Assembly: GCA_020848745.1 (NCBI GenBank)
Contig: JADLHM010000003.1
Span: 1-57,816, forward strand
DNA from: Deltaproteobacteria bacterium
GTDB taxonomy: Bacteria; Desulfobacterota; Binatia; UTPRO1
Direction: 5' to 3'
DNA length: 57,816 nt
Part shown: positions 4,964 through 25,034 of the stretch, piece by piece
How the letters are laid out: each line of letters begins with the position of its first letter
Numbering within the stretch: the stretch's first letter is position 1
Program-made: the position numbers and the translations under genes
The notes under the pieces: model-generated
The model's input: the letters and a program-made list of their open reading frames with translations, nothing else
The model's database searches: none
What the model was told of the DNA's origin: nothing

Positions 4964-5013
4964 GCCGATCGCTAAATCTATTGGGTTCCGTGGCCGCCTC
5001 ACAACAACCGAAA

Positions 5014-6890: not shown

Positions 6891-9192
6891 CGCGTTGCAC
6901 GCCCATCCATCGGTCGGTGACCGCCAACGCGCCGATCGCGCAGAGGGCCGCGAGGCTGATGAGAAGCCCCGTTCTCACGCTCGCCGGCTCATAGCGAAAG
7001 GTCACGACATGGTGGCCCGCCGTGACGCGCACGGCGCGGACGACGTGGTTCGCCGCATAGATCGGTGTCGCCATGCCGTCGACGGTCGCCTGCCAACCCG
7101 GATAGTAGGTGTCCGTCAACACGAGGTATCCCGGCGCGTCGACGTCCGCCTCGATCTGCACCTCTCGCGGTTCGTAGCGCACGACGCGCGCCGGCGTGAC
7201 GGCCGTCGCGATCGTCCCCCTGGGGTCAGACTCCATCGGATCGGGCTCTCGTTCGACGACCACGGTACTTCGCGGATCGAACGTGGGCATGAGAACGGCC
7301 GCGAGGCTGGCCGCTGCGTCGGCGACATGCACGAAATGCGTGGCCACGTAGGCGCGCGGGAGCGGCGCCGCGTGCTCGTACAAGAGATAGTCCAGGCCCG
7401 CCACGTCGGGCACGAGACGCCACGGCGAGGCAGGTGCGCCGAGCGCCAGATGCCCGCCGCTCGCCCGGTGTTCGACCCAGTACCTCAGGCTCAACACGTC
7501 GAGCGCCTTGCGCATCGGACTCGACGGCTCGACGTTCAGGAATCCCGTGAAAGGCACGATCCTTTGCGTCTGCGCGATGGAATCGAAGAGATCCTCGAAG
7601 CGCACGAGACTCAGTGGCTCGTAATCGGTGATCGCGTAGACTTTGCGTAGCGTGCCCTGCTTCGCCGTCACCGAGTAGTCGAACCCTATGGGGTCGTGAA
7701 GATAGGTTCGACCGAGCCCCTGGTTGGCGCGGATGTAGTCGAAGATCGGATCTTGCCGGTGGAGTATCTCGACGCCATGGAACGGGTGCCGAAACACGTT
7801 GGTGGAGCCGTGCACGAGGTCGGCAACCGCGCAGCCTACGGCGATCATCACGAAAGCGCGGCGCCGGCGAACGTCCGGCGCGAAGAAAGCCGCGCCGATC
7901 GCACATGCCGCACCGATGGCCAAGACGAGATCCACCGTCGCCAGGGACGATCGACGCCACAAGAGTGTTGCTCCGAGGCCGAGCAATCCCCATCCCAACA
8001 TGAGCCTCGGAACACGGCGCGTGGGCCGATCTCCGGAGAGCGCATCCATCCCGAAGGCCGCGAGGAGGGCGGCCGAGAACGCGACGAGAAAGGAGATCCG
8101 CCGCGGCTCGCGAAACAGGCGCGCGCCGGGCAAATGCAAATACACGTGCTCGAAGAACGGAGTGTGCGGCCCGAGGGCGATCAGCAAGCTCGCGACGAGA
8201 ACGACCCAGAAGACGGCGCGCGGCATCAGCCGCCGGCTCGCGGCCAGCGACGTGGCGACGAGAGCGAGCACGATCGGCCCCAGGAAGAAGGGGCCGATGA
8301 ACGGTTTGGTGGTGCGCCAATCGAGCATCTCGTCGACCAATCGCTGCGGCGACAACGACATGAATGGGATGAGCTGCTGCATCGTGAGCCCGCCGACCCG
8401 CCGGGGTCCGAGCATCTGAAGCTCGCGCGCCGGTAGGAGCTGCACCGCCGCCGCGGCGACGCCGAGGCCGAGGCCGAGCCCGAGTAGGACGACCATCCTC
8501 ACGAGCGCCGCTCTCGTCACGCCCGTCCACGCGAGAGCGGCGATCCGCAGGCCCGCGTAGAGCACCACGACGTACGTCGTATAAAGCCAGAAATGCGTCC
8601 ACCCGCTGAGCAGCGCCAGCGCGATCGGCACCGCAAGCAGCGCCGCATGCGACGCACGACCCGACACGACGATCCGTTCGACGGCGATCAACGCGAGCGG
8701 CAGCCAGGCCGCCGAGGCGATCGCTGGCGTGAACCAGCTTGCCAGGCCCGCCATGAAGCCGCAAAACATATAGACGGCCGCCGCGCCGAAGCACGCGACG
8801 GGCGCGAGCCCGATCTCGGCCGCGTAGCGATGGGTAAACCATCCCGCGAGCGTCAAGTGCAGCACGATGACAGCCTCGATCGCGACCGCCGTCGGCAGGA
8901 AGAGGTACAGAACGTTCGGCGGGTAGCAGACACCGTACAGGGTCGTTGCGAGGAAGGGATGACCCGCGAACTGGTACGGATTCCAGAGCGGGAAAACACC
9001 GTCGCGGATCCACGCCGCCGCCCGAAAAGACATCGGGTAGATCTGCATGAAGAAGTCGGCATTGCCGAACCCCGGGGCGAACGGATGGTCCCACGCGGGA
9101 CGGATGATGCGAAAGTACCAGAACATTGCCGCGCCGGCGGTAATCAGCGCGGCGCCGCCGGCGCGTCGCCACCGCCCTGCCACGGCTTTCAT
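6880..9192 (-). CDS. YfhO-family polytopic membrane protein, copy 1
   Basis: 770 residues with about a dozen hydrophobic segments and a soluble C-terminal domain (~560-730) ending in one more helix. The N-terminus has the YfhO-type 'WNPYQFAGHPF' block near residue 68 and an aspartate in 'FGNADFFMQIYPM'. In Firmicutes YfhO glycosylates lipoteichoic acid using a lipid-linked sugar; here a GT-C type role in envelope glycosylation is inferred. It closely matches the gene just upstream along its length, so the pair arose by tandem duplication. Its ATG overlaps the stop of a 50-codon ORF (ATGA). Confidence 0.82.
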   Translation of the reverse strand: MKAVAGRWRRAGGAALITAGAAMFWYFRIIRPAWDHPFAPGFGNADFFMQIYPMSFRAAAWIRDGVFPLWNPYQFAGHPFLATTLYGVCYPPNVLYLFLPTAVAIEAVIVLHLTLAGWFTHRYAAEIGLAPVACFGAAAVYMFCGFMAGLASWFTPAIASAAWLPLALIAVERIVVSGRASHAALLAVPIALALLSGWTHFWLYTTYVVVLYAGLRIAALAWTGVTRAALVRMVVLLGLGLGLGVAAAAVQLLPARELQMLGPRRVGGLTMQQLIPFMSLSPQRLVDEMLDWRTTKPFIGPFFLGPIVLALVATSLAASRRLMPRAVFWVVLVASLLIALGPHTPFFEHVYLHLPGARLFREPRRISFLVAFSAALLAAFGMDALSGDRPTRRVPRLMLGWGLLGLGATLLWRRSSLATVDLVLAIGAACAIGAAFFAPDVRRRRAFVMIAVGCAVADLVHGSTNVFRHPFHGVEILHRQDPIFDYIRANQGLGRTYLHDPIGFDYSVTAKQGTLRKVYAITDYEPLSLVRFEDLFDSIAQTQRIVPFTGFLNVEPSSPMRKALDVLSLRYWVEHRASGGHLALGAPASPWRLVPDVAGLDYLLYEHAAPLPRAYVATHFVHVADAAASLAAVLMPTFDPRSTVVVEREPDPMESDPRGTIATAVTPARVVRYEPREVQIEADVDAPGYLVLTDTYYPGWQATVDGMATPIYAANHVVRAVRVTAGHHVVTFRYEPASVRTGLLISLAALCAIGALAVTDRWMGVQRDEA

Positions 9193-9341
9193 TGCCGCCC
9201 CACGAACGAGGCAGCCGCAATCAGGGCGCTCACGATTCGCATCGCGGTGCTCGTATGCGTTGGATTCGCCTTCTCGACATCGATCTCGCTCCCTGGGGCG
9301 ACAAGCTCTAAGGTCGCGGGGTCGCCTTCTCCGCGGGGCAT
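9189..9341 (-). CDS. Possible 50-residue small protein coupled to YfhO copy 1
   Basis: Read from ATG 9341, this frame gives a charged N-terminus and a hydrophobic C-terminus (residues ~35-47: IVSALIAAASFVG), ending in TGA at 9189. That stop overlaps the ATG of the next gene as ATGA, the spacing used by real gene pairs throughout the window. It overlaps the end of YfhO copy 2 by 34 bases. The C-terminal pattern resembles the hydrophobic tail coded just upstream of YfhO copy 2. It could be a true single-span peptide, the worn C-terminus of a lost gene, or chance. Confidence 0.35.
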   Translation of the reverse strand: MPRGEGDPATLELVAPGSEIDVEKANPTHTSTAMRIVSALIAAASFVGRQ

Positions 9342-11641
9342 GATGGCGCGCGCGGCCGGACGCCTACCACGAGAGTCGCGAGCACCAGCAGCGCGAGGCC
9401 GCTGACGAGCGCCCCGCGCTGCACGCTCGCGGGCTCGTAGCGGAACGCGACGACGTGATGGCCGGCCCCGACCGGCACGGCCCGTACCAGGTGATTCGCG
9501 GGATGGATCGCAGCCGGCGCCTCATCCACCGTGGCGCGCCACCCGGGATACCAGGTGTCGGTCAGCACGAGCACGCCGGCCGCTGGTGCGTCCACCTCGA
9601 CTCGGACCATTCGCGGCTCGTAGCGCGTGATGCGCGCCGGAACCACGGGGGACGGAGCGGCGCTCGACCCACGCGGCGCCGCCAGATCCGGCACGTCCTC
9701 GACGATCACGCTCCGGCGCGGATCGAATCCGGGCGCGAGCAGCGCGCCGAGACTCGCGGCGGCGTCGGCGACGCCCACGACGTGCGTCGCCACGTACGCG
9801 CGCGGCAGCGGCGACGCGTGCTCGAAGAGCTGGTACCTCTGGGTCGCGACCGCTGGCACGGGCCGCCAGGGTGATCCCGGCGCGCCCAGCATCCGTCGCA
9901 TGTCGGCGTTCGCGTTGGCCACGACCCAATATTTCAGGCTCAGCACGTCCAGCACGCCGAGGTGCGGACTCGCCGGGTCGACCTTCAGCCACCCCGTGAA
10001 CGGCGCGATACCGCGCGGCATGCCGATCGCGTCGTAGACCTCCTCGAACCGCAAGAGATTCAACGGCTCGTAGTCGGTGATCGAGTAGATCTCGTTGAGC
10101 GTGCCCTGCTTGTTCATCACCGAGTAGTCGAAGCCGATCGCGTCGTGCAGATACGTGCGCCCGAGTCCCTGGCGTGCACGCACGTAGTCGAGGATGCGGT
10201 CCTGCTCGTGCAGGATCGCGACGCCGTGGAACGGGTGGCGAAAGACGTTTCGCGTCGCGTACGCGAAGTTCGCGACGACGAGGACGGTGACCACCGCCGC
10301 CACGTTCGCACGCAAGCGCGCGCCGCGCGCGCGGACCGTCGCGACGAAGAGGCAGGAAGCGATGCCGATGAGCCCGAGCTCGACGCCCGCGAGCGGTGCT
10401 CGTAGCGCGAGGCCCGCCGCTCCGCCCGCGAGGACGATGATGCCGACCGCGGCCGCGAGCGCGCGGCGAGCGGCCGAGCCGCTCCGCAGCACGTCCACGC
10501 CGAATCCGGCCAGTGCCGCCGCCGAGAACGCCACCAAGAACGCGATCCGCTGCGGCAGCCGGAACAGTCGCGCGAACGGCAGACGCAGGTAGACGTGCTC
10601 GAAGAACGGCGTATTGAGCGCGACGGCGACGAGAGCACTCGCCACGAGCATGATCCACATCGCGGCGGCGGCGACGCGGCTCCGCAGCGCGCAGAGCGAC
10701 ATGCCGACGAGCGCCAGGACGATCGGACCGAAATAGAAGACGCTGATGAACGGTCGGGTCGCCCGCCAGTCGATCGCTTCGAACGCGAGACGGGCAGGCG
10801 GCAGCGACATGAACGGCACGAGCTGCGCCATCGTGACCCCGCCGAGTCGCCGCGGACCGAGCGCCTGGAGCTCGCGCGTCGGGAGCAGCTGCACCGCGGT
10901 GAGCGCCGTGCCGACGCCGACCGCGGCCACGAGCAGCGCAATGACGCCCGCGAGCACCGTAGGCGGTGTCCCGTGCCAGGCCAGCGCCACCAGCCGCACG
11001 CCGGCATACAACCCGACGGCGTACACGGTGTAGAGCCAGAACTGCGTCCACCCACCGAGAAGCGCAAGCGCGAGCGCCGTCGCGAGGAGGGCCGCGCTCC
11101 GCGCGTCGCGGCGCGCGAGCAGGCGCTCGACGGCGATCAGCGCGAGCGGCAGCCACGTCGACGACGCGACCGCGGGCGTGAACCAGTTCGCCTGGCTCGT
11201 CATGAAGCCGCAGAACATGTACACGGCGGCGGCCGCGAGGCGCGCGATCGGCGCGAGACCGATGATTTCCGCGTAGCGGTACGTAAACCATCCCGAGAGG
11301 ATGAGGTGGAGCACGACCACGGCTTCGATGGCCGCGGCCGTCGGCAAGAGCAGGTACAGGACGTTCGGCGGGTAGCACAGGCCATAGAGCGCCGCCGCGT
11401 GGAACGGATGACCCGCCAGCTGGTAAGGATTCCAGAGCGGGAAGACGCCGTCTGCGATCCACGCCGCGGCGCGGAACGACATCGGGTAGATCTGGGCGAA
11501 GAAGTCGACGTTCCCGAGACCGGCGGCGAACGCTACGTCCGCGGCGGGGCGGATGAAGCGGAACCACCAGAACGCGACCGCGCCGACGGCGATCAGCGCG
11601 AAGGCCGCGACACGCGGGAGGCCCCGCTCGCCGCCGCTCAT
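9308..11641 (-). CDS. YfhO-family polytopic membrane protein, copy 2
   Basis: 777 residues, colinear with copy 1: 'WNPYQLAGHPFHAAALYG' near residue 68, then about 12 membrane segments, then a soluble domain with 'LVLTDTWYPGWRATVD' before the last helix. Similarity to copy 1 is very high in the N-terminal third and persists to the end. The predicted role is lipid-linked-sugar-dependent envelope glycosylation. Its ATG at 11641 overlaps a TGA in another frame that closes a short duplicate of the HAD-UbiA tail. This suggests it once followed such a gene directly. Confidence 0.82.
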   Translation of the reverse strand: MSGGERGLPRVAAFALIAVGAVAFWWFRFIRPAADVAFAAGLGNVDFFAQIYPMSFRAAAWIADGVFPLWNPYQLAGHPFHAAALYGLCYPPNVLYLLLPTAAAIEAVVVLHLILSGWFTYRYAEIIGLAPIARLAAAAVYMFCGFMTSQANWFTPAVASSTWLPLALIAVERLLARRDARSAALLATALALALLGGWTQFWLYTVYAVGLYAGVRLVALAWHGTPPTVLAGVIALLVAAVGVGTALTAVQLLPTRELQALGPRRLGGVTMAQLVPFMSLPPARLAFEAIDWRATRPFISVFYFGPIVLALVGMSLCALRSRVAAAAMWIMLVASALVAVALNTPFFEHVYLRLPFARLFRLPQRIAFLVAFSAAALAGFGVDVLRSGSAARRALAAAVGIIVLAGGAAGLALRAPLAGVELGLIGIASCLFVATVRARGARLRANVAAVVTVLVVANFAYATRNVFRHPFHGVAILHEQDRILDYVRARQGLGRTYLHDAIGFDYSVMNKQGTLNEIYSITDYEPLNLLRFEEVYDAIGMPRGIAPFTGWLKVDPASPHLGVLDVLSLKYWVVANANADMRRMLGAPGSPWRPVPAVATQRYQLFEHASPLPRAYVATHVVGVADAAASLGALLAPGFDPRRSVIVEDVPDLAAPRGSSAAPSPVVPARITRYEPRMVRVEVDAPAAGVLVLTDTWYPGWRATVDEAPAAIHPANHLVRAVPVGAGHHVVAFRYEPASVQRGALVSGLALLVLATLVVGVRPRAPSCPAEKATPRP

Positions 11642-12685: not shown

Positions 12686-14128
12686 TCACAAGAGGCGCGC
12701 GAGCAGCAACACCGCCGCGATCAGCGATCCCACGATCCAGCTCTCGCGGTCCGTGATCGCGAACAACACCGGGTCGTCGTGCAGCTGGCCGCGGAACGCG
12801 AGCATCCAGATGCGGCTGATCCAGTAGAGGAGCAGCGGGCAGATCAGCCAGAGGAGCTCCGGACGGGCGTAGACACCGACGACGCGGTCGCTGTTGATGT
12901 AGAGCGCCGCGACCAGCACCGCGATGTAGCCGCTCACCGCGCCGTTGACGGCGACGAGCTGGAGGTCGGTCGGGTAGTAGCCCCGCACGCGGAGCTCCGG
13001 CGGCTCGCCGCGCAGCACGTAGAGCTCGGCGTAGCGCTTCACGAAGGCCAGGCTCAGGAAGAAGAACAACGAGAAGCCGAGGATCCACGGCGACGGCCAG
13101 ACGTGCGTCGCCGCGGCGCCCGCGATCACCCGGCCGGTGTAGAGCAACGCGAGCACGATGACGTCGACGAGCGGCACGTGCTTCAAGCGGAACGAGTACG
13201 CGGTGGTGACCGCCAGATAGACCGTCAGCACGCCGAGGAACGCGGGCGGCAGGAAGAGCCACGCGATCCCGAATCCCGCGACGAGACACGCCGGAATGAG
13301 CGCGAGCCCCGCCGCGAGCGGCAGATCGCCCGCGGCGAACGGCCGGCGGCTCTTGGTGCGGTGGCGGCGGTCGGCGGCGAGGTCGAGGAGGTCGTTGGCG
13401 ACGTACACGGCCGACGCGCAGACGCTGAAGGCGGCGAAGGCCAGGGCGGCGTCGAGGAAGAGCGGCAGCTCGCGCGCCTCGGGCGCCATGAGCAGCGGGA
13501 CGAAGACGAGGAAGTTCTTGACCCACTGCGGCACGCGGAGCGCCCGGGCGAGCGCCGACACCCGCCGCGCCGGAGAGGTGAAGATCCGGTCCACACGCGG
13601 TCCGGCGCGGCGCGCGAGGTCCGCATCGTTGCTGACGACGATCGCCCGCCGCGCGGCCTCCCAGACGGGCACGTCGGCCGGGCTGTCGCCGGCGTAGTCG
13701 AAGCCGCCCGTTCCGAAGCGCTCGACGAGCGCGGCCCGCTTGGCGGCTCCCTTCAGGTTCGTCGCGGCGTCGGTCGCGATCACGTCGTCGAAAAGGCCGA
13801 GGTGGCGGGCGACCGCGCGCACGATCGACTCGTGGGCAGCCGAGACCAGGAGGAGCGACCGCCCCTTGGCGCGCTCCACGCGCAGGAACTCGAGTAGCTC
13901 GTCGCGGTAGGGCAGCGCCGCGGGATCGAGCGTGACCCGCTTGGCGACCTCGTCCTTCAGCACCGCCTTGCCGCGCAGCAGCCAGATCGGCAGCAGTAGA
14001 ACCGCGGACGGGGCGCCCTTGAGGAGCAGCAGCGTCGCCTCGACCAGGGAATCGGTACGCAGCAGCGTGCCGTCGAGGTCGACGCAGAGCGGTACGTCGT
14101 CGGCCGGCACGCGCGTTCCCGAGACCAT
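12686..14128 (-). CDS. HAD phosphatase fused to UbiA-family prenyltransferase (DPPR-synthase-like)
   Basis: 480 residues. The N-terminal HAD domain (~1-185) has 'DLDGTLLRTD', 'LLLVSAAHE' and 'DYAGDSPADVPVWEAA' (motifs I, II and IV). The C-terminal UbiA domain (~195-480) has 'VPQWVKNFLVF', the prenyl-diphosphate site 'NDLLDLAADRRHRTKSRRP' and 'KRYAEL', with seven or more helices. These blocks resemble mycobacterial decaprenyl-phosphate phosphoribosyltransferase (Rv3806c) as I recall it. A phosphatase fused to it could remove the 5-phosphate of the product. ATG 14128 is preferred over GTG 14134 because GAAGG lies 5-6 bases upstream. Divergent from the oxidoreductase genes. The exact substrate is inferred. 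Confidence 0.85.
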   Translation of the reverse strand: MVSGTRVPADDVPLCVDLDGTLLRTDSLVEATLLLLKGAPSAVLLLPIWLLRGKAVLKDEVAKRVTLDPAALPYRDELLEFLRVERAKGRSLLLVSAAHESIVRAVARHLGLFDDVIATDAATNLKGAAKRAALVERFGTGGFDYAGDSPADVPVWEAARRAIVVSNDADLARRAGPRVDRIFTSPARRVSALARALRVPQWVKNFLVFVPLLMAPEARELPLFLDAALAFAAFSVCASAVYVANDLLDLAADRRHRTKSRRPFAAGDLPLAAGLALIPACLVAGFGIAWLFLPPAFLGVLTVYLAVTTAYSFRLKHVPLVDVIVLALLYTGRVIAGAAATHVWPSPWILGFSLFFFLSLAFVKRYAELYVLRGEPPELRVRGYYPTDLQLVAVNGAVSGYIAVLVAALYINSDRVVGVYARPELLWLICPLLLYWISRIWMLAFRGQLHDDPVLFAITDRESWIVGSLIAAVLLLARLL

Positions 14129-14278
14129 CTGCACCTTCGGTGCGTCGTAGCATGGCCCTTCGGGGGCCTACCAGCCGCAATCAGGCCCCGGGGTTCATTG
14201 TCGTCGCCCTCACGTCGACGTGCTACGGTGGCGCCTCGGTTCGAGGCCGTCCCGGCCCGCCAGAGCCACCACGGCATC
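14129..14278. promoter_or_regulatory. Divergent intergenic region, probable promoters for HAD-UbiA and oxidoreductase genes
   Basis: About 150 bases between divergent genes. On the plus strand an extended -10-like TGCTACGGT occurs at 14221-14229, with TTGTCG at 14198-14203 as a poorly spaced (20-base) -35 candidate. No clear minus-strand promoter was recognised. Shared control of the two arms is plausible only from layout. Confidence 0.35.
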
Positions 14279-14815
14279 GTGACGCACACCGACCCCCAAA
14301 CGATCGTCCCGGATCTTCCGGCGCCCACCCTGCGGCGGAAGCTCGGCCACATCGCCGCGCTCGCCACCGATCGGACGGTCGCGGCCATCGCCGAGTGTCT
14401 CGCGCCCGACTTCCCCCGGCTCGACGCCGCGACCCGCGCCGCCGTGCTGTCCGACGTGACCGCCTTCACGGCGTCCCAGGTCGGCGCCCTGCCCGACTTC
14501 CTCCGCTATCCGTATCGCCTGGTACTCATGGCCTTCGAATGGCTCGCCGTGCCGCGCTACGGACGGCCGTTCGTCGCGCTCGATGCCGAGCGCCGCCGGG
14601 CGTGGGTCGACCTCTGGGCCGAGTCGCCGCTCGGCGCGACCCGCAACTTCGTGAAGCTCGTCCGCAGCTGCGCGCTCCTCGCGTTCTACGACCATCCCGC
14701 GCTGCAGGACGCCTTGCGCCTCCAGGCGGGCCAGGACGCCGAGCCTCCGAAGGACGCGCCGTCCGCGATCGACGCGCTCGCCGCGCCGGCCCCGCGCGTG
14801 GGAGCCGCCTCGTGA
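14279..14815 (+). CDS. Small partner protein of the GMC oxidoreductase (gluconate dehydrogenase subunit 3-like role)
   Basis: 178 residues from GTG 14279; earlier in-frame starts exist (GTG 14228, TTG 14198). Mostly helical and soluble, with 'FPRLDAATRAAVLSDVTAF' and 'FLRYPYRLVLMAFEWLAVP' patches and no cofactor motif or Cys cluster. Its stop overlaps the GTG of the GMC gene (GTGA). Small helical subunits directly upstream of GMC dehydrogenases commonly act as chaperone or secretion partners, as in gluconate 2-dehydrogenase. That role is inferred from position and size; direct family assignment was not certain. Confidence 0.6.
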   Translation: MTHTDPQTIVPDLPAPTLRRKLGHIAALATDRTVAAIAECLAPDFPRLDAATRAAVLSDVTAFTASQVGALPDFLRYPYRLVLMAFEWLAVPRYGRPFVALDAERRRAWVDLWAESPLGATRNFVKLVRSCALLAFYDHPALQDALRLQAGQDAEPPKDAPSAIDALAAPAPRVGAAS

Positions 14816-17367
14816 CGCGCGGCATCGTCCGCGACGCGGCATGCACGCTCACGACCGAGATCCTCGTCATCGGCTCCGGCGCGGGCGGCTCCGTCACCGC
14901 CGCCGCCCTCGCGGAGGCCGGCCACGACGTGCTCCTCCTCGAGGAGGGACCCGCGGCCGACACCTCGCACATCACGAGCAACTCGGTCGACGCGATCACG
15001 ACCCTCTACCGGAACGGCGGCATGACGCCGATCCTCGGGCGCCAGACCGTCGCCTACGTCGAAGGTCGCTGCGTCGGCGGCTCGACCGAGATCAACAGCG
15101 GTCTCTGGCACCGGCTCCCGGACGACGCGTACCACCGCTGGCGATCCGACGTGCTGCTCGCGGACTTCTCGCCGGAGCGGATGGCGCCCTATTTCGAGCG
15201 TATCGAGCGTGATCTCTCGGTGTCGCTCATCCCCGACGACGAGATTCCGAAGAGCTCGCGCCTCTTCCGCAAGGGCATCGAGAGCCTCGGCTGGGCCTAC
15301 CAGCAGGTGCCGCGCTGCCAGAAGAACGGCGGCAGCCAGTTCGCGCCGGGCGCGAAACAATCGATGCAGCGCACCTACATCCCGCGCGCCGTCGCGGCGG
15401 GCGCGCGCCTCGTCGCCGACTCGAAGGCGACGAAGCTCGTGACCGAAGGCGACCGGGTCGTCGGCGTCGAGGTGCTGCAGCGGCCGGCCACCGAGCGGCG
15501 CCGCTGCGAGATCCGCGCCGACACGGTCTTCCTCTGCGGCGGCGCCATCCAGACCCCGGCGCTGCTGCGCCGCAGCGGCATCAAGCGCAACATCGGCAAC
15601 AGCCTCCGCATCCACCCGATGATCAAGGCGGCCGCGCTCTTCGACGAGGAGGTCGAGGCGCACGAGGACGCCCTCCCCGTCTATCAGGTGAAGGAGTTCT
15701 GGCCGACGATCACGATGGGCGGCGCGGTCTTCACGCCGGGCTTCCTCGCGATGATCCTCGCCGACAGCTGGAAGGCCTACCGGCACGCGATGCGCGACTG
15801 GCCCCGCATGGGCCTCTACTACGCCGGCACGCGCGCCATGGTGCGCGGCTCCGTGCGCGCGATCCGCGGGCTCGATGACGGGGTCGTGATCCGTTACCGG
15901 CTCTCGGAGGCCGACCGCCGGAACCTGAGCACCGGGCTCGGCCTCCTCGGCGAGCTACTGTTCGCGGCGGGCGCGCGTGCCGTTTATCCCTCGCTCACGG
16001 GGGCGCCGATCCTGCGCTCCGCCGATCAGTGCCGCGGCATGGTGCAGGCGCCGATCCCCCTCGGCTCGATGGCGCTCTCGAACGTGCACGCGTTCAGCAC
16101 GTGCCCGATGGGCGAGAACCGCGATGTCTGCGCGACCGACTCCTTCGGCAAAGTGCACGGCTTCCGCAACCTCTACATCAACGACGCGAGCCTCGTCCCC
16201 GACGCCCCGGGCGTGAACCCGCAGGGCACGACGATGGCGATCGCGTTCCGCAACGCGGAGCACTTCATGGACGAGCGACGTTCGCTTCCGGCGCGCCGGC
16301 GCGCCGCGACGACGGAGCGCCCCGCGCTCCTCCTGACCGGCGCGCCGGGCTGGCTCGGCACGCGGCTCGCCGAAGTCTTGATCCAGGGGCTGCCGAGCGT
16401 GCCGTCGCTCGCGACGCCGCGGGCCGGCGTGCTGCGCTGCCTCGTCCGCCCCGCCGACGACGCGCGCGGCCTCGAGCGGCTCTCGGAGCGCCTCGCGCTC
16501 TCGCCCGGCGACCTCACCGACGCGCCGTCGCTTCGCGACCTCTGCCGCGACGCCGAGGGTGCGACGCTCTTCCACGTCGCGGGCCTCATCCATCCGCGGC
16601 TCTGGACGAGCGACTTCGACCGCGTCAACGTCGAGGGCACGCGCGCGCTGCTCGCCGCCGCCGAGGAGGCGGGGGTGCGGCGCGTCGTCGTCGTCTCGTC
16701 CAACTCGCCGCTCGGCTGCAATCCGCCGATCCCGGGCCACGTCTTCGACGAGTCGTCGCCTTCCAACCCGTACATGGGCTACGGCCGCTCGAAGGCGCGC
16801 ATGGAGGCGCTCGTCCGCGAGGTGCAGGCGCGCGGCCGCCTCGAGACCGTCCTCGTCCGCCCGCCGTGGTTCTACGGACCGCACCAGCCGCCGCGCCAGA
16901 CGCTCTTCTTCACCATGATCAAGGACGGCAAGTTCCCGGTGCTCGGCGATGGCACGCAGCGGCGGTCGATGGCCTACGTCGACAACATCTGCCAGGGACT
17001 GCTGCTCGCCGCCGCCGCCCCGCGGGCGAACGGCGAGACCTACTGGATCGCCGACGCCCGCCCCTACACGATCACCGAGATCGTCGAGACCGTCACCGAG
17101 GTGCTGGAATCGTTCGGCTTCGCGTGCAAGCGGAAGCAGACGCGGCTGCCGCGCGCGGTCGGGGAGGTCGCGCGCGTCGTCGACGGCGCGCTCCAGGGCC
17201 TCGGCCTCTATCAGCAGAAGATCCACGTGCTCGGCGAGATGCACCAGTCGATCGCCTGCTCGATCGCGAAGGCCGAGCGCGACCTCGGCTACGCGCCGAC
17301 GGTCGCGCTCCGCGACGGCATGCGGGCGTCGATCGAGTGGTGCCTCGCGAACGGACACCACATCTGA
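14812..17367 (+). CDS. Fusion of GMC-family FAD oxidoreductase and NAD(P)-dependent SDR (3-beta-HSD/epimerase type)
   Basis: 851 residues from GTG 14812. Residues ~1-495 are a GMC flavoprotein: FAD-binding 'VIGSGAGGSVTAAALAEAG' (~19-37), 'CVGGSTEINSGLWHRLP' (~88), active-site region 'NVHAFSTCPMGENRD' (~424), and the C-terminal 'NDASLVPDAPGVNPQGTTM'. Residues ~504-851 are an extended SDR: 'LLLTGAPGWLGTRLAE', 'VNVEGTRALLAAA', 'VVVVSSNSPLG' and the catalytic 'YGRSK' (~657-661). No stop or frameshift separates them and both halves look intact. The protein could oxidise a hydroxyl and reduce the ketone, giving net epimerisation. ATG of the next SDR overlaps its stop (TGATG). Confidence 0.88.
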   Translation: MTRGIVRDAACTLTTEILVIGSGAGGSVTAAALAEAGHDVLLLEEGPAADTSHITSNSVDAITTLYRNGGMTPILGRQTVAYVEGRCVGGSTEINSGLWHRLPDDAYHRWRSDVLLADFSPERMAPYFERIERDLSVSLIPDDEIPKSSRLFRKGIESLGWAYQQVPRCQKNGGSQFAPGAKQSMQRTYIPRAVAAGARLVADSKATKLVTEGDRVVGVEVLQRPATERRRCEIRADTVFLCGGAIQTPALLRRSGIKRNIGNSLRIHPMIKAAALFDEEVEAHEDALPVYQVKEFWPTITMGGAVFTPGFLAMILADSWKAYRHAMRDWPRMGLYYAGTRAMVRGSVRAIRGLDDGVVIRYRLSEADRRNLSTGLGLLGELLFAAGARAVYPSLTGAPILRSADQCRGMVQAPIPLGSMALSNVHAFSTCPMGENRDVCATDSFGKVHGFRNLYINDASLVPDAPGVNPQGTTMAIAFRNAEHFMDERRSLPARRRAATTERPALLLTGAPGWLGTRLAEVLIQGLPSVPSLATPRAGVLRCLVRPADDARGLERLSERLALSPGDLTDAPSLRDLCRDAEGATLFHVAGLIHPRLWTSDFDRVNVEGTRALLAAAEEAGVRRVVVVSSNSPLGCNPPIPGHVFDESSPSNPYMGYGRSKARMEALVREVQARGRLETVLVRPPWFYGPHQPPRQTLFFTMIKDGKFPVLGDGTQRRSMAYVDNICQGLLLAAAAPRANGETYWIADARPYTITEIVETVTEVLESFGFACKRKQTRLPRAVGEVARVVDGALQGLGLYQQKIHVLGEMHQSIACSIAKAERDLGYAPTVALRDGMRASIEWCLANGHHI

Positions 17368-18398
17368 TGCGCGCGCTCATCACCGGCGGATCCGGGTATT
17401 TCGGCTGTCTGCTGCGCGACCGGCTCGTCGCCCGCGGCGACGCGGTGCGCGTCTTCGATCTCGTCGACGTCGACGACCGCCCCGCGAGCGTCGCGTACGT
17501 CGCCGGCGACATCCGCGACGCCGCCGCCGTGCGACGCGCCTGCGAGGGCATCGACGTGGCTTACCACAACGTCGCGCAGGTCCCGCTCGCGAAGGACCGG
17601 GCGCTCTTCTGGGCCGTGAACCACGGCGGCACCGAGAATCTGCTGAGCGCGGCGCGCGACGCGCGCGTCCGCAAGGTCGTCCACACCTCGACGAGCGCGG
17701 TCTTCGGCGTCCCGAAGAAGAACCCGGTCGACGAGACCACCGAGCCGACCCCCATGGAGGAGTACGGCAGGGCGAAGCTCGCCGGCGAGCAGCTCGTCGC
17801 CCGCTTCGCCGCCGAGCACGGCCTCGACGTCACCATCATCCGGCCGCGCACGATCGTCGGCCACGGCCGCCTCGGCATCTTCCAGATCCTCTTCAACTGG
17901 GTCGAGGAGGGCCGGAACATCCCCGTGCTCGGCGCGGGTGACAACCGCTACCAGTTCGTCCACGCCGACGACCTCGCCGACGCCTGCGTCCGTGCGGCCG
18001 ACCGGCCGGGAAGCACCACCTACAACATCGGCGCCGAGAAGTTCGGGACGATGCGCGAGGTGCTGGAGGCGCTCTGCCGCCACGCCGGCACCGGCAGCCG
18101 CGTGTACGCGGTGCCGATGGGCCTCGCGACCGCCGCCATGCGGCTCACGAGCGCGCTCGGCCTCTCGCCGCTCGGCCCGTACCATTCGCTCATGTACGGA
18201 CGGAGCCTCTACTTCGACGTCGGCAAGGCGAAGCGCGAGCTCGCCTGGAGCTCGCGCTGGTCGAACGACGAGATGCTCTGCCAGTCCTACGACTGGTACC
18301 GCGCCCACAAGACGGAGATCCTGAGCGCGAAGGACGCCTCGCCCCACCGCTCGGCGCTGAAGCAGGGCGTGCTGGCGCTGGTGCGCCGGCTGTCCTGA
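17367..18398 (+). CDS. NAD-dependent epimerase/dehydratase family protein
   Basis: 343 residues, extended SDR fold. 'LITGGSGYFGCLLRDRL' (residues ~4-20) binds NAD(P), 'DIRDAAAVRRACEG' follows, 'VVHTSTSAVFG' gives the catalytic Ser/Thr strand and 'EYGRAKLAGE' (~132-141) the Tyr-x-x-x-Lys pair. 'RPRTIVGHGRLGIFQIL' and 'NRYQFVHADDLADA' are family blocks. ATG at 17367 overlaps the preceding stop by one base; the longer open frame upstream is a shadow of the fusion gene. It probably acts on the same sugar or lipid-linked substrate as the GMC-SDR protein. Confidence 0.88.
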   Translation: MRALITGGSGYFGCLLRDRLVARGDAVRVFDLVDVDDRPASVAYVAGDIRDAAAVRRACEGIDVAYHNVAQVPLAKDRALFWAVNHGGTENLLSAARDARVRKVVHTSTSAVFGVPKKNPVDETTEPTPMEEYGRAKLAGEQLVARFAAEHGLDVTIIRPRTIVGHGRLGIFQILFNWVEEGRNIPVLGAGDNRYQFVHADDLADACVRAADRPGSTTYNIGAEKFGTMREVLEALCRHAGTGSRVYAVPMGLATAAMRLTSALGLSPLGPYHSLMYGRSLYFDVGKAKRELAWSSRWSNDEMLCQSYDWYRAHKTEILSAKDASPHRSALKQGVLALVRRLS

Positions 18399-18501: not shown

Positions 18502-19482
18502 ATGACGCCGTCCGATCGGCTGCCCGCTATCGACGTCATCAAGGCCGCCTCGATCGTCGCGGTCCTTCTGACCCACGGCGTACCGGGGTTCTTCGACCGC
18601 CCCCTCACGCCGAGCGAGCTCGCCGCGCTGCTCCTCACGGGGTTCCACGTGCCGGCGTTCCTCTTCGTCGCCGGCCTCTCCTCGCACGCGGACTCGCCGG
18701 TCGGCTGGAGGCGCGTCGCCGATCGCTGGCGGCGCCTGCTGCCTCCCTACTTCGTCGTCACGGCAGTCACGTGGTTGGCTGGGCTCGTCGAGTTCCCGAC
18801 GCCCCGTCGCTTCGTCTTCAAGATCGTGACCGGCGCGACCTTCGGGCATTTCTACTTCGTTCCCGTCCTCGCATTCTGCTTTCTCTGTCTGCCCGTCTTG
18901 TCACGCCTGAGCACCAGGGGATTGCTCGTACTCGCGGGAGCGATCGCCATCGGCGCGGAGATGCTGTGGGCGCATCCGGCATGGCGCCTGAGCGACATGC
19001 TGTTCTGGCAGGTCCGGAACCCGATCCTGCAGTTCCATCTCGGCTATTTCGTGCTCGGCGTGGCAGCCGACCGGCACCGGAGGCGGATCGCTCGGATCGA
19101 TAGGCACGCGCGGCCGGCAGTGCTGGCCGGCAGCATCGTCGGGATCTCGCTCTTCGTGTGGCTCGCGGCGACGACCCCGGAATCCGTGTCGCACCCCACG
19201 GTGCGCGTGGCGTACAACCTCACGGCAATCGCGTTCCTCGCGTCGGTTGCACGCCCACGAATCGTTCCGGCGGCCGTCCGCTTCTTGAGCGACGCCACAT
19301 TGACGTTCTACCTGTACCATTGGTTCGCCTACCTCGCGCTCATGCCGTCGCTGGAGGAATCCCTCCCGCTCGTCGCGCGGATGCTCATCCTGACCGGCAC
19401 TGGTCTCGCATTCAGCACCGTGGTCACGCTCGTCGGCCGGTGGACGTTGGGTCGATACAGCCGGGTGCTCTTGGGTGTATGA
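18502..19482 (+). CDS. Acyltransferase family 3 integral membrane protein
   Basis: 326 residues with about ten hydrophobic segments. The start 'LPAIDVIKAASIVAVLLTHG' has the family's N-terminal helix with the conserved His, and 'LPPYFVVTAVTWL' and 'FYLYHWFAYLAL' match later helices. Members (OafA/WecH/ExoZ types) move O-acyl, mostly acetyl, groups onto exported polysaccharide or lipid-linked sugars. It is separated from the SDR genes by a hairpin and 103 bases, so it may have its own transcript. It sits in a glycan region but the acceptor cannot be read. Confidence 0.82.
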   Translation: MTPSDRLPAIDVIKAASIVAVLLTHGVPGFFDRPLTPSELAALLLTGFHVPAFLFVAGLSSHADSPVGWRRVADRWRRLLPPYFVVTAVTWLAGLVEFPTPRRFVFKIVTGATFGHFYFVPVLAFCFLCLPVLSRLSTRGLLVLAGAIAIGAEMLWAHPAWRLSDMLFWQVRNPILQFHLGYFVLGVAADRHRRRIARIDRHARPAVLAGSIVGISLFVWLAATTPESVSHPTVRVAYNLTAIAFLASVARPRIVPAAVRFLSDATLTFYLYHWFAYLALMPSLEESLPLVARMLILTGTGLAFSTVVTLVGRWTLGRYSRVLLGV

Positions 19483-19980: not shown

Positions 19981-22900
19981 CTACTTGCAGGCGAGCCTCT
20001 TGCCCTTGCTCTTCAACGCGCAGGTCTCCTTGCCGACGGCGAAGTGCGTTGCGCCGCACGTGCCGATCGCCGGGAGATCGAGGATGACCGCGACCGGTGC
20101 GGTCGCGGCGAACGTTCCGGCTGTGCCCTTGACCGACACCGCGAGCGTCGCCTGCCTGACGTGCACTGCGAGCGTCGCCTTGACGATTCCCGCCGGCGCG
20201 CCGGCCTTGGGGTGGCTCCAGGTCCATCTGGTCCGCTTCTTGTCGACCTTCCAGCCGATCTTGGTCGCCTTGTCGTACGCTCCCGGCGGGAGCGTCACGT
20301 CGACGACGGAGCCCGCGCCGTCGTCGAGGCGGAACGCGATCCCCGCCACGTCGGCGTCGGGCGGGCTCGGCGGTGCCGGTAGGATCCCCACGAACGCGAG
20401 CGTGTCGTCGCCGCCGGGCGCGAGCATCTTGCCGAGCGTCAGCCGGGGTTTGGCGAACGTGGCGCAGACCGGCGGCGGCGACCCCGCGAGCGCGAGCTCG
20501 CTGAACGACAGCACGTGGAAGCTCCACTGGTTCAGGGTGCGGTCGCAGCCGGCGTCGGTCGCGCAGGCGCCGATCGGAACGCCGTCGTGGCGGAGCGTCA
20601 TGCCGCGTTCCGCGACGTTCGTCCCGTCGACGATGCCGTCGCCGTCGGCGTCGGGCCAGCGGAGCGTGATGGTGACGCCCGGCAGCGCGAACGCCGCCGA
20701 AGGCTCGAAGCGCGCGGCGAAGACGAGCGTCGTCGCGTCGCCGATGCCGAACGCGCTCGTCGCGAGGTGAGAAGCGATGGCGTAGTTGCCGCTCGGCGCG
20801 ACCCCGGGCGGCACGGTGAGCGATGCCGAGCCGTCGGGTGTCGTGATCGCGCCGCCGGCGGCGCCGTCGATCCAGCCGTTCGTCGAGGTCGCGGCGCTGC
20901 AGCCGGTCGTGTCCACCGGATCGAGGCGGCACTGGGTGCCGCCCGCGCCGTTCGCTTCGCATGCGCCGCCGCTGCACGCGTCGGAGCACGCGCCGAACGT
21001 GGTGTGCCGGCACGTCGGCGTGCAGCAGAGCGACTGCGCGTTCGGCCCGTCGCATTCTTCGAGGTCGGAATCCAGAGCGTCGTCGCCGCAGGTGTCGGAG
21101 ACGCACTCGTGCGCGGCGTTGCACGTGCCGGGTCCGGGATCGTGGTAGCAGGCGGCGCCGGGCGGGTCGTACGTGCAGTCGAGGTTGCAACACGCGTCGC
21201 GGTACGGATCGTACGGCGAGGGGCGGGTCTCGCATTCCTCGCCGGGGTCGAGGACGCCGTTCCCGCAGTTCGTGTACATGCACTGGCCGGCGTGATCGCA
21301 CCGCCCGCCGAAACCGCACGGGGTGAAGTAGGAGACGAAGCGGCATTCGGAGCAGCACAGGCCGTCGTCCGTGCTGAACGGGTCGCAGTCCTCACCCGGA
21401 TCGACGGCGCCATCGCCGCAGACCGTGACGCCGCAGAGCGGGTCGCCTTCGAAGGTGAGCTCGCTGGTCTCGCCGATCTCGTCGCCGTTCGTGAGGTTCC
21501 GCCCGCCGTGCGTGACCTCGCGCTGGCGGGCCGTGTCGTAGACCAAGGGCATGGACGAGCGCGGGGGGAAGAGCTGGGCGACGTTCATGCGGCGGAAGCT
21601 GCCGGGCGATTCGAGGATCCAGGTCTCGTGCTCGCGCGTCCCGCTCTGGAGCTGGTGGAAGCCGATCCCGACCGGATGGCCGCGGGCCGCGTCGAAGACG
21701 AGCGCGAGCGTGCCGTTGCTGAGCGAGGTCTCGCTCGTCGTGCCGCGCAGCGTCCAGGCGTCGTCGATCAGATCCCAGGTCTCACCGGTCGGGTCGGCGC
21801 CCAGGGTGTACGTGTGGACGACGAGCGCCTTCCGCACCGGGTCGTAGGCCGCCGTAGCGTTCTCGTTCGCGGTCGGCGGCCCGCCGCTCGTCACGCGCGG
21901 CGTCCAGGTCGTGCCGTCCCACTCCCAGAGGTCGTTCGCTTGGGTCGAGCTTCCGGTGCGGCCGCCGTAGAGCTCGAGCCGCTGCCGGTCGCCGTCCCAG
22001 ACCATCTGCCCCTTGACGCGCGGTCCCGGACCGTTCGCCTTCTCGGTCCAGGTCGCGCCGTTCCACTCCCAGGTGTCGGAGAGCACGCCGTCGTGCTGGT
22101 GGGTGTTGTCGGCATAGTTGCCGCCGTACATGACGGTGACCTGGCGCAGCGGGTCGTACCCCATGGACGCGAGCTGCCGCCCGGGGATGGCGCCCGGCAG
22201 CACGCTCGTCTTCTGGATCCGCGTCCACGTGCCGCCGTCGTACTCCCAGGTGTCGTTCTCGGTCGCGAACCCGAAGCCGTCCTCGCCGGGGGACTGGAAG
22301 CCGCCGAAGAGCACGACCTTGCCGCGCACGCCGTCGTAGGCCATCTGCGGGTTCTCGCGCGGCGGGCCGAGCGTCGTCTGGATCCAGGCGCCCTCTTGCA
22401 CGGTGACGCTGAATGATCCGGTCGGCGTCGCGCCGCAGTCGTTCGACGCCACGACCCGGTAGAGGCCACTGTCGCTCGCGCGAAGGGGATCGATCTCGAG
22501 CTGCGTCGTCGTCGTGCCGGCCATCCGCGCGTTGTCATGCAGGTCGACCGGGACGCCGTTCACGAGCCGCTGCCATTGGAGCGCGAACGGCCCGATGCCC
22601 TCGGGGGTGAAGCTGAAGGTGTTGTCCGTGCACGGCGGCGCCTCGCGCGACGTCGGGCTCACCGTGTAGGTCGGCGGGCGGCCGCCGAACGTCCAGGTGC
22701 CGCTGTAGATCGTGTCGCCGCCCTTCCCGCCGAACATGACGGCGACACGGTGCGCCTGGTCCCACGCGAACCCCATGCGGCCGCGGGGCGCCGGCGAGCC
22801 GGTCGTGTCGTGCCTCGTCGTCGGCCCGTCGCCGGCGCGGAAGAGCACGTCCGCGGTGGTCGTGCCGTCCACGTCGACGCCGCCGAAGAGGATGAGCTTG

Positions 22901-23691
22901 TCGAAGAACGCGTCCCATACCGCGCCGTGGTCGTAGCGGGTCGGCCCGCTCGCCAGGAGCTGCCAATCCGTGCCGTCCCAGAGCCAGACGTCGCCGAAGA
23001 CGGCGCCGAACTGACGATCGTCGAAGCTCTGGCCGCCGTACAGCAAAACGCCGCCGAGCGACGACGACCACACCATCGTGTGCCCGACGCGCGCCGCGGG
23101 GCTGTGCGCGGGGTGCACGAGACTGCCGCGGACGACCGTCGAGGCGTACGCCTGGTCGTCGTCACGTCCGCCGAAGACCACCCAGTCCTGGCGGATCGGA
23201 TCGTAGGCCATCGCGGCCTGGACGACGCCGCGATCCGCCGAGATCGTGCCGATCAGGTCGAAGTGATCGGCCGCGGGATCGTAGGCCCAGACGTTGCGCT
23301 GGAGATCGTCGGTCGGCCCGGGGAGATCGGGGCGGAGGCCGCCGTAGATCACCAGGAGCTTGTTCTTCGCGTCGTACGCGGCGGCGTAGCCGGAACGTCC
23401 GTCGGGGCCGTCCGCACTGGAGACTTCCCGCCACGTCGCGCTCGGGAGATCGAGCTCCCAGAGGTCGTCCAGGTACGTCGGCAGGGTGAGGACATCGCGC
23501 GATTCGCCGCCGAACATGAGGATCTTCTGGCGGTCGCTGTCATAGACGAGCTGATGCGCGAAGCGCTTCGGCGGGTCGTTGGTGGTCGCGACCGCGAGCC
23601 ACTGCTCGCAGTCGTACTGCGCGTGTGCCGGAGAGACGAGCGCGAGGATCGCGACAACGACGGCGAGACCGTAACGGCAGCCGGAGCCCAT
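19981..23691 (-). CDS. Large secreted Kelch-repeat / Ig-like / Cys-rich (DUF4215-type) protein
   Basis: About 1236 residues. Signal peptide 1-25 ends in 'SPAHAQ'. Residues ~40-330 hold six or so Kelch-like repeats each ending in F/YGG ('VYDSDRQKILMFGGES', 'AYDPIRQDWVVFGGRD'). Next are one Ig-like domain (~335-425, 'DSGLYRVVASNDCG'), more Kelch repeats (~430-740), and a Cys-rich block (~754-925) with 'CGDGAVDPGEDCD' and 'CGNGVLDPGEEC' units. A C-terminal domain ends in lysines and paired Cys. Such proteins are exported adhesins or surface proteins of unknown function. ATG 23691 is chosen at the signal peptide. Confidence 0.85.
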   Translation of the reverse strand: MGSGCRYGLAVVVAILALVSPAHAQYDCEQWLAVATTNDPPKRFAHQLVYDSDRQKILMFGGESRDVLTLPTYLDDLWELDLPSATWREVSSADGPDGRSGYAAAYDAKNKLLVIYGGLRPDLPGPTDDLQRNVWAYDPAADHFDLIGTISADRGVVQAAMAYDPIRQDWVVFGGRDDDQAYASTVVRGSLVHPAHSPAARVGHTMVWSSSLGGVLLYGGQSFDDRQFGAVFGDVWLWDGTDWQLLASGPTRYDHGAVWDAFFDKLILFGGVDVDGTTTADVLFRAGDGPTTRHDTTGSPAPRGRMGFAWDQAHRVAVMFGGKGGDTIYSGTWTFGGRPPTYTVSPTSREAPPCTDNTFSFTPEGIGPFALQWQRLVNGVPVDLHDNARMAGTTTTQLEIDPLRASDSGLYRVVASNDCGATPTGSFSVTVQEGAWIQTTLGPPRENPQMAYDGVRGKVVLFGGFQSPGEDGFGFATENDTWEYDGGTWTRIQKTSVLPGAIPGRQLASMGYDPLRQVTVMYGGNYADNTHQHDGVLSDTWEWNGATWTEKANGPGPRVKGQMVWDGDRQRLELYGGRTGSSTQANDLWEWDGTTWTPRVTSGGPPTANENATAAYDPVRKALVVHTYTLGADPTGETWDLIDDAWTLRGTTSETSLSNGTLALVFDAARGHPVGIGFHQLQSGTREHETWILESPGSFRRMNVAQLFPPRSSMPLVYDTARQREVTHGGRNLTNGDEIGETSELTFEGDPLCGVTVCGDGAVDPGEDCDPFSTDDGLCCSECRFVSYFTPCGFGGRCDHAGQCMYTNCGNGVLDPGEECETRPSPYDPYRDACCNLDCTYDPPGAACYHDPGPGTCNAAHECVSDTCGDDALDSDLEECDGPNAQSLCCTPTCRHTTFGACSDACSGGACEANGAGGTQCRLDPVDTTGCSAATSTNGWIDGAAGGAITTPDGSASLTVPPGVAPSGNYAIASHLATSAFGIGDATTLVFAARFEPSAAFALPGVTITLRWPDADGDGIVDGTNVAERGMTLRHDGVPIGACATDAGCDRTLNQWSFHVLSFSELALAGSPPPVCATFAKPRLTLGKMLAPGGDDTLAFVGILPAPPSPPDADVAGIAFRLDDGAGSVVDVTLPPGAYDKATKIGWKVDKKRTRWTWSHPKAGAPAGIVKATLAVHVRQATLAVSVKGTAGTFAATAPVAVILDLPAIGTCGATHFAVGKETCALKSKGKRLACK

Positions 23692-23936
23692 ACGTGAACC
23701 TTCGACAGGACGCTCGAGCAACGCGATCGTGCCACCGTCGAACGTCGGATCCAATCGGGGGTCGGCGCAATCGGCGGGCCGGAGAACCGGGCGGCGTACT
23801 ACTGCTCGTAAGCCTCCGCCGCCGCTGTGATCGGCGCGCGCGACACCTCCCCGCGCGCGGGAGTCCCGCTGACGGCCGATCGCATCGTCCGGCTGCGCGC
23901 GGCGGAGCCCCGCCACCGGACTCCGCTCCGGCTCCG

Positions 23937-25034
23937 CTACGGCGCGGGGTCGAGAGCGCCCAGGTAGACCGCCTCCACCGCCGCGGCGGCGCGGGCCCAC
24001 GAGAACTCGGTCGCGCGCTCGAGACCGAGCGCGCGGTGCGCGGCGGCCGTCGCGGGCGTCCCGACCATGGCGACGAGCGCCTGCGCGAGCGCCGCTTCCG
24101 CGGGCTCGTCGATCAGGAGCGCGGCGTCGCCCGTGACCTCGGGCACGGCGCTCCGGCGGAGCGCGATCACCGGGCAACCGCACGCCATCGCTTCCACGAG
24201 CGTCAGACCGAATCCCTCGTAGAGCGACGGATTCACCAGCACGTCGGCGTTGCCGTAGAAGAGCGGCAGCTCGGCGTCGGCGAGCGGACCGATGAGCCGC
24301 ACGCGCTCGCGCGGGAGGTCGGGCCGATACCCCGGCCGGATGCGGCCGGCGAGCACGAGCTCTGCGCCGGGAAGCGCCGGAGCAGCACGCCTGAACGCGG
24401 CCGCCAGGAGCTCGACGTTCTTCCGCGGCTGCAGCGTGCCGAGGTAGGCGATCAACGGCCCGGCGCCGAGCCCGTGACGCGCGCGGAACGCGCGCAGCGC
24501 CCCCGCGTCGTCCAGCGGCCGGAAGCGCGGGCTCACGCCGTTCGGCACCACGCGGACCTTGGCGGCGAAGCGGGGGAAGCGGGCGCGGAGGTCGGCCGCC
24601 GCATGCTCCGACACGGTGAGGACGGTGCGCGCGACACGGACCGCGTGCGGCGTCTCTGCGCGCAGGTGCCAGCGCTGGGCAAGCGCGAAGGTCTCCGGGT
24701 GGTGGTAGACGGCGAGGTCGTGGATCGTCACGACCGCCGGACACGGGCAGCGGACCGGTACGGCGTTCTTGGTGCCGTGGTAGAGATCGGCGCCGATCCT
24801 GCGGAGCGCGTGCGGCACGCGCCCGTGGTCCCAGAGCGGCTGCGCCCACGGCGTCCGGAGCGGCAGGTGCTCGACGGCGACCGGGATGCCGTCGAACGCC
24901 TCCGGTCCGTCGGTGAGCACGACGTATTCGAGGCCCGGCGTACGGCGCGCGGCGAGCGCACGGACGAGCTCGATCGCGTAGGTCGCGGGCCCGCCGAGCG
25001 TGCGCGCGACCGCGCCGATCGCGACGCGTCTCAC
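23937..25034 (-). CDS. Family 4 glycosyltransferase
   Basis: 365 residues, GT-B fold. The C-terminal half shows 'YLGTLQPRKNVELLAAAF' (~160-180) and the donor-binding E-x7-E stretch 'EGFGLTLVEAMACGCPVI' (~270). The N-terminal 'GGPATYAIELVRAL' is the acceptor-domain start. GTG 25034 overlaps the stop of the upstream GT2 (GTGA); the longer open frame is a shadow. A retaining mannosyl- or glucosyltransferase for a cell-surface polysaccharide is likely. It is the last gene of a four-gene glycosyltransferase run. Confidence 0.88.
   Translation of the reverse strand: MRRVAIGAVARTLGGPATYAIELVRALAARRTPGLEYVVLTDGPEAFDGIPVAVEHLPLRTPWAQPLWDHGRVPHALRRIGADLYHGTKNAVPVRCPCPAVVTIHDLAVYHHPETFALAQRWHLRAETPHAVRVARTVLTVSEHAAADLRARFPRFAAKVRVVPNGVSPRFRPLDDAGALRAFRARHGLGAGPLIAYLGTLQPRKNVELLAAAFRRAAPALPGAELVLAGRIRPGYRPDLPRERVRLIGPLADAELPLFYGNADVLVNPSLYEGFGLTLVEAMACGCPVIALRRSAVPEVTGDAALLIDEPAEAALAQALVAMVGTPATAAAHRALGLERATEFSWARAAAAVEAVYLGALDPAP

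Follow-up and report, generated by a model that had tools for sequence, protein, structure and literature searches.

We analyzed a contig of 57,816 nucleotides from a Deltaproteobacteria bacterium of the UTPRO1 lineage (JADLHM010000003.1, hereafter the window) and found a divergent locus that likely encodes a pathway to a lipid-linked pentofuranose donor, in which a redox-tailoring module would convert polyprenyl-phosphate-ribose into another pentofuranose donor. The minus strand carries a HAD-UbiA fusion of 482 amino acids (12686-14134). Across a divergent intergenic region (14135-14278), the plus strand carries a small Gluconate_2-dh3-like partner of a GMC oxidoreductase (14279-14815), the GMC oxidoreductase fused to an extended SDR (SDR1; 14812-17367, 851 amino acids) and a separate extended SDR (SDR2; 17367-18398). 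The original prediction, made from the letters of this stretch, had named these genes, and all are present where it placed them. The first step of the pathway is known from other bacteria. The predicted GMC/SDR/SDR remodelling half appears to be new and has strong genomic support.

Homology strongly supports the assignment of HAD-UbiA as a fused polyprenyl-phosphate phosphoribosyltransferase/phosphatase (PRP-PPPRS). Its HAD (PF12710) and UbiA (PF01040) domains span residues 19-157 and 217-444, and the protein matched the model NF006088 over its full length (residues 10-480) with 637.2 bits against a cut-off of 351. The UbiA part scored 121-138 bits with models of decaprenyl-phosphate phosphoribosyltransferase (DPPRS) and at most about 25 bits with quinone or haem models, and its only sequence relatives in the PDB were DPPRS structures (8j8j and 8j8k). 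The DPPRS active-site motifs NDxxDxxxD and KRxxE are present; N247, D248, D251, D255, and R367 were invariant and E370 nearly so in a 28-row alignment. The three blocks that had been singled out as resembling Rv3806c (VPQWVKN, NDLLDLAADRRHRTKSRRP, and KRYAEL) were all found. In a phylogenetic tree from which long branches were left out, HAD-UbiA clustered with the Mycobacterium tuberculosis DPPRS, apart from Escherichia coli UbiA, MenA, CyoE, and two other UbiA proteins of its own genome (split 98/99). Grouping the window UbiA with the quinone/haem-side set was rejected (approximately unbiased test, p-AU 0.031). The nearest fold to the AlphaFold2 (AF2) model (pLDDT 91.2) was 8j8j (Z score 28.4), and the next UbiA reached 20.4. 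The HAD domain of the model resembles SerB-like phosphatases. Profiles, PDB matches, tree, and fold all assign the UbiA domain to the DPPRS type, as the original prediction had proposed, and the quinone or haem grouping that it had named as contrary evidence was not seen.

This half of the system is an already known enzyme type, characterized in 2024 as ORF15 of Citrobacter youngae O1, in which a HAD domain is likewise fused N-terminally to a UbiA-type phosphoribosyltransferase (PMC11127046). In the work of Kelly et al. 2024 (PMC11127046), an ORF15-type protein yielded farnesyl-phosphate-ribose from phosphoribosyl pyrophosphate (PRPP), and most of the product of the D18A variant stayed phosphorylated. 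The corresponding nucleophile here is D19 in the motif CVDLDGT, and the motif GDSPAD is also there. Residues N247, D248, D251, D255, R366, and E369 of ORF15 have conserved equivalents in HAD-UbiA; these residues and mutants thereof were discussed in the same work (PMC11127046). The fusion of a HAD phosphatase to UbiA was thus confirmed in the arrangement of ORF15. A non-actinobacterial polyprenyl-phosphate pentose pathway, as put forward in the original prediction, is as such not new (PMC11127046).

The three genes of the plus strand appear to be coupled in translation, because the start of the GMC-SDR gene (GTG, 14812) overlaps the stop of the small gene (GTGA, 14812-14815) and the start of SDR2, probably the ATG at 17367, overlaps the stop of GMC-SDR (TGATG, 17365-17369). 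The reading frame of the small gene is open from 14198; the GTG at 14279, where relatives align, is probably the likelier start. Chance open reading frames (ORFs) are excluded, as the genes recur in 15 of the 148 class genomes and across phyla. The small protein matched Gluconate_2-dh3 (PF13618) with 28.0 bits (gathering threshold 23.4). In the fusion protein (AF2 pLDDT 90.8), the GMC part (PF00732 and PF05199) covers residues ~14-490 and SDR1 (PF01370) residues ~505-851; SDR2 matched PF01370 with 151 bits. The GMC part keeps the FAD motif, the GMC signature, and the catalytic His/Asn pair, and the latter two are conserved in 13 fusions. Both SDRs keep TGxxGxxG and YxxxK, and in SDR2, YxxxK and TGGSGxxG are conserved in 15 orthologues. 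The DprE1 model NF053785 was absent among the 25 listed NCBIfam matches of the GMC flavoenzyme, and the DprE2 model NF053786 was absent among those listed for the two SDRs, which are of the extended Epimerase type. No Tat-like start of a GMC-system protein was noticed by eye. Gluconate 2-dehydrogenase, FAD-glucose dehydrogenase, and glucoside 3-dehydrogenase combine a GMC catalytic subunit with a small PF13618-type protein, and the same pairing is present here. Unlike in these sugar dehydrogenases, the GMC protein here is joined to SDRs by fusion or coupling and is tied to the synthesis of polyprenyl-phosphate sugars.

The main alternative in the original prediction was a steroid- or terpenoid-type substrate for the GMC-SDR. 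In this reading, the module would oxidize a terpenoid such as a steroid or hopanoid and be connected to UbiA only via shared lipid metabolism. The SDR profiles do weakly match HpnA, OleD, and sterol dehydrogenases, and the GMC part locally matches cholesterol oxidase. However, all sterol and hopanoid scores fell far under the curated cut-offs (NF058674, 43.4/850 bits; SdmB, NF052578, 84.7/600; HpnA, 130/368). Cholesterol oxidase (Z 36.5) was also not the best structural match, as choline oxidase (41.1) and fructose dehydrogenase (39.2) scored higher, and when PDB sequences were searched with the GMC profile, the scores of choline, cholesterol, and pyranose oxidases lay close together. A terpenoid substrate would give no reason for the repeated linkage of the module to DPPRS-type UbiA, GT-C-like, and ArnE-like SMR proteins. 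By profile cut-offs and gene context, we therefore consider this explanation very unlikely.

We profiled the module in 148 genomes of the class, including the genome of the window (G000) and two others of its genus (G001 and G002). The fused GMC-SDR1 occurs in 13 genomes; besides that of the window, 12 encode it at 59-90% identity. In two more (G117 and G119) the GMC and SDR1 genes are split but adjacent. The order GMC-SDR1-SDR2 was retained in all 15 genomes with the trio, with a recognizable Gluconate_2-dh3-like match upstream of GMC in 14. DPPRS-type UbiA was found in 15/15 trio genomes vs 49 of the 133 other genomes (Fisher p 1.2e-6, not corrected for phylogeny) and was adjacent to the trio in eight. 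The adjacent gene is a divergent HAD-UbiA in G000, G001, G002, and G054. In G024 and G047 the adjacent UbiA is unfused, and in G117 and G119 it belongs to a colinear GMC-SDR1-SDR2-UbiA operon. The UbiA proteins of G024, G047, G117, G119, G023, and G030 all scored best with DPPRS models. The divergent order of HAD-UbiA and operon is thus conserved in G001, G002, and G054, where its loss had been named as a result that would count against the prediction.

The suggested co-occurrence check also revealed the tie to DPPRS-type UbiA outside the class. Scanning named genomes with an SDR1 profile retrieved 227 relatives, of which we kept 80 with 50-88% identity, a few being class members again. These loci come from Cyanobacteria, Verrucomicrobia, Myxococcota, Obscuribacterales/Melainabacteria, Planctomycetes, rhizobia, and others. 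GMC, SDR1, and SDR2 occur together in 61/80 stretches and all four genes in 30/80. A DPPRS-type UbiA lies in 33 of the 80, mostly within 1 kb and about half of the time HAD-fused, and 36 of the 39 searched genomes with no adjacent UbiA carry one elsewhere. DprE1 and DprE2 profiles matched in none of the 80 stretches. We also drew 141 genomes evenly from the class of a Verrucomicrobiota metagenome-assembled genome (G190). SDR1 was detected in four of them, which hold the four top-scoring HAD-UbiA proteins; three of these were known from the first scan, leaving a single independent confirmation. Pairwise distances correlated between GMC and SDR1 (r 0.83) and between GMC and SDR2 (r 0.50). A Gluconate_2-dh3-like homologue lies upstream of GMC in 67/80 loci; it is fused to GMC in 12 loci, mostly from Verrucomicrobia, and to an LPG_synthase_TM protein in about 20, mostly from Myxococcota and Obscuribacterales. 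One example of the latter, directly 5' of GMC, is a protein at 6097-7536 of locus L214 (with relatives), in which the Gluconate_2-dh3-like part is C-terminal. In cyanobacteria and some proteobacteria, the cassette repeatedly includes a small DUF218-like protein (L221, 3534-4085, and seven relatives).

Rhizobial plasmids also carry the cassette. On pNGR234a, the symbiotic plasmid of NGR234, seven consecutive genes encode HAD-UbiA (NGR_RS31055), SDR1 (NGR_RS31060), a large hypothetical protein, GMC (NGR_RS31070), a small hypothetical protein (NGR_RS31075), an SMR protein, and SDR2 (NGR_RS31085). These are presumably the genes y4nM-y4nG. This complete cassette (299625-307690, L269) bears only generic annotation, and similar sets occur on further rhizobial plasmids. 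In the open-licence papers searched, no account of the GMC/SDR/SDR module turned up, and neither a GMC/UbiA cassette nor the y4n genes gave any relevant match.

The original prediction held that the module replaces DprE1 and DprE2 step for step with non-homologous enzymes. This does not apply to the organism of the window, whose genome encodes a DprE1 homologue on another contig (C76, 3272-4603). Its best PDB matches are all DprE1 (E~1e-72), and it scored 410 bits with a model built from two class members and 357/500 bits with the NCBI equivalog. A DprE2-like SDR gene, assigned to its family on the orthologous pair in G030, begins at the stop codon of the DprE1 gene. These genes rule out strict replacement in this genome. 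In the C76 stretch (3272-8402, L154), the pair is followed by genes for a membrane protein and for a fusion of LPG_synthase_TM with a methyltransferase; the stretch is a candidate second lipid-pentose locus. We also tried PF04030 (ALO) as a proxy for DprE1 and rejected it as misleading, because it missed most DprE1 homologues; a full-length PF04030 match on contig C57 is probably a lactone oxidase and not DprE1.

In a rival explanation, the GMC-SDR and SDR2 proteins would be a pure functional replacement of DprE1/DprE2, performing C2 epimerization to polyprenyl-phosphate-arabinose and being redundant in this organism. The module adjoins a DPPRS-type UbiA, the place of DprE1 in class members G055, G021, G087, and G071. 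Two class genomes (G117 and G119) carry the cassette in split form, and no DprE1 was found in them; outside the class, just 11 of the 49 cassette genomes gave a DprE1 match and the other 38 did not. On the other side, DprE1 is present in 13/13 class genomes with the fusion, several of them, including that of the window, with an adjacent DprE2-like gene, and in G054 DprE1 and the cassette stand side by side. A single epimerization would also leave one extra SDR unexplained. We consider such a replacement doubtful; the module is instead best read as additional to DprE1/DprE2 here, and it may be an alternative to them elsewhere. The search of the window's genome gave a single DPPRS-type gene, so its product probably feeds both DprE1/DprE2 and the GMC/SDR module.

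For the proposed donor pathway, we envisage the following order. The HAD domain would strip the 5-phosphate to give polyprenyl-phosphate-ribofuranose, a reaction shown elsewhere. The FAD-dependent GMC protein, docked via its Gluconate_2-dh3-like partner, would then oxidize one ring hydroxyl, and the fused SDR1 would reduce the ketone to the opposite face, following the logic of DprE1/DprE2 with unrelated or distantly related proteins. SDR2 would perform a second reduction or epimerization, possibly alone like C. youngae ORF13. The product could be flipped by an SMR/ArnE-like or LPG_synthase_TM protein, as found in relatives, before a GT-C enzyme, here YfhO-like, uses it. Since DprE1/DprE2 already cover C2 epimerization in this genome, the sugar formed by the module is probably another one. 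GMC/Gluconate_2-dh3 sugar oxidizers acting at C3 are known. For these two reasons, C3 inversion to a xylofuranose-type product is our leading guess, though less likely than not. The enzymes might also go beyond epimerization, by C5 oxidation, dehydration, or formation of a deoxy or keto pentose, to yield an unusual lipid-linked sugar. Three redox proteins rather than two are in keeping with this, as is the best solved relative of SDR1, which belongs to the TDP-glucose 4,6-dehydratase family of enzymes that oxidize, eliminate, and reduce. However, nothing favors such chemistry over epimerization, and SDR fold families are common to epimerases and dehydratases, so we regard it as rather unlikely.

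Several observations weigh against the donor pathway. The GMC fold picks no substrate, as all GMC folds score high, and the module's role is a predicted one. The DPPRS gene is single and DprE1 is also present in most class members, so genomics does not decide which oxidoreductases use the DPPRS product. The neighboring DPPRS-type UbiA proteins are of two subtypes; the linkage is therefore to a function and not to one orthologue. Most cassette matches come from metagenome-assembled genomes, and no flippase gene is adjacent to the cassette within the window.

ArnE-like SMR, LPG_synthase_TM, and GT-C-like membrane proteins, candidate partners for transport and transfer, recur as cassette neighbors; among NCBIfam models, the SMR protein matched best, below cut-off, with ArnE, a subunit of the Ara4N-lipid flippase. 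In the window, the donor synthase is present together with two adjoining YfhO-like polytopic membrane proteins on the minus strand, both candidate GT-C enzymes (6880-9192 and 9308-11641), whereas SMR or LPG_synthase_TM occur in the cassettes of relatives. The first matches YfhO-like proteins of other cassette loci (tblastn) and falls into their family cluster. The second matched PF09586 with 54.7 bits, and its relatives adjoin the cassette in seven loci, including the window. At the place of this tandem pair (6880-11641), G001 has a single copy that is 79% and 61% identical to the two.

Polyprenyl-phosphate-ribose is converted to other pentofuranoses by two described routes, DprE1/DprE2 and ORF13 (PMC11127046). 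The C. youngae system resembles that of the window in having an SDR in its O2 version and GT-C-like proteins nearby, but its flippase is of the MATE type, its GT-C is a GT136 enzyme, and it has a single SDR (ORF13, in O2 only) (PMC11127046). The window instead has GMC, the Gluconate_2-dh3-like protein, SDR1, SDR2, and the YfhO-like GT-C candidates, with SMR or LPG_synthase_TM in relatives. The mycobacterial decaprenyl-phosphoryl-arabinose pathway (Rv3806c, Rv3807c, DprE1, and DprE2) shares the homologous UbiA transferase and a flavin enzyme and SDR beside it that would oxidize and then reduce; it differs in that GMC stands here for the DprE1 family, extended SDRs for the DprE2 family, and HAD for Rv3807c. 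Lipid-linked pentose genes are also described in a rhizobium: Azorhizobium noeC, noeH, and noeO, of the noeCHOP genes for Nod-factor arabinosylation, were proposed to make a D-arabinose precursor, and noeC was compared with mycobacterial arabinosylation proteins (PMC2443382). The cassette consists of other genes and lies on different symbiotic plasmids, pNGR234a among them.

We give even weight, for and against, to the broader proposal that a GMC oxidase and two extended SDRs perform a third, undescribed chemistry on polyprenyl-phosphate-ribose, in at least six phyla and on rhizobial symbiotic plasmids, yielding a non-arabinose pentofuranose for a surface glycan. If true, this would be a third, non-homologous route in cyanobacteria, Verrucomicrobia, Myxococcota, Planctomycetes, and rhizobial plasmids (Sinorhizobium fredii NGR234, Mesorhizobium, and Rhizobium gallicum). 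It would give a function to genes labelled only as GMC family oxidoreductase or NAD(P)-dependent oxidoreductase and predict unrecognized pentofuranose-bearing surface glycans. It would also provide testable symbiosis genes and biocatalysts.

Two further neighbors were tried as members of the system and rejected. For an acyltransferase gene (18502-19482), the nine relatives searched showed no match next to the cassette. A putative endonuclease gene of the Uma2 family (PF05685, 11775-12413), which adjoins HAD-UbiA, is retained beside the cassette only in G001 among the nine. UTPRO1 is placed in Myxococcota by NCBI and in Binatia by GTDB. Further downstream in the window (19981-24849), a large ORF encodes, after a signal-like stretch, kelch-like repeats recognized by eye and cysteine-rich CGDG..DPGE.CD repeats.

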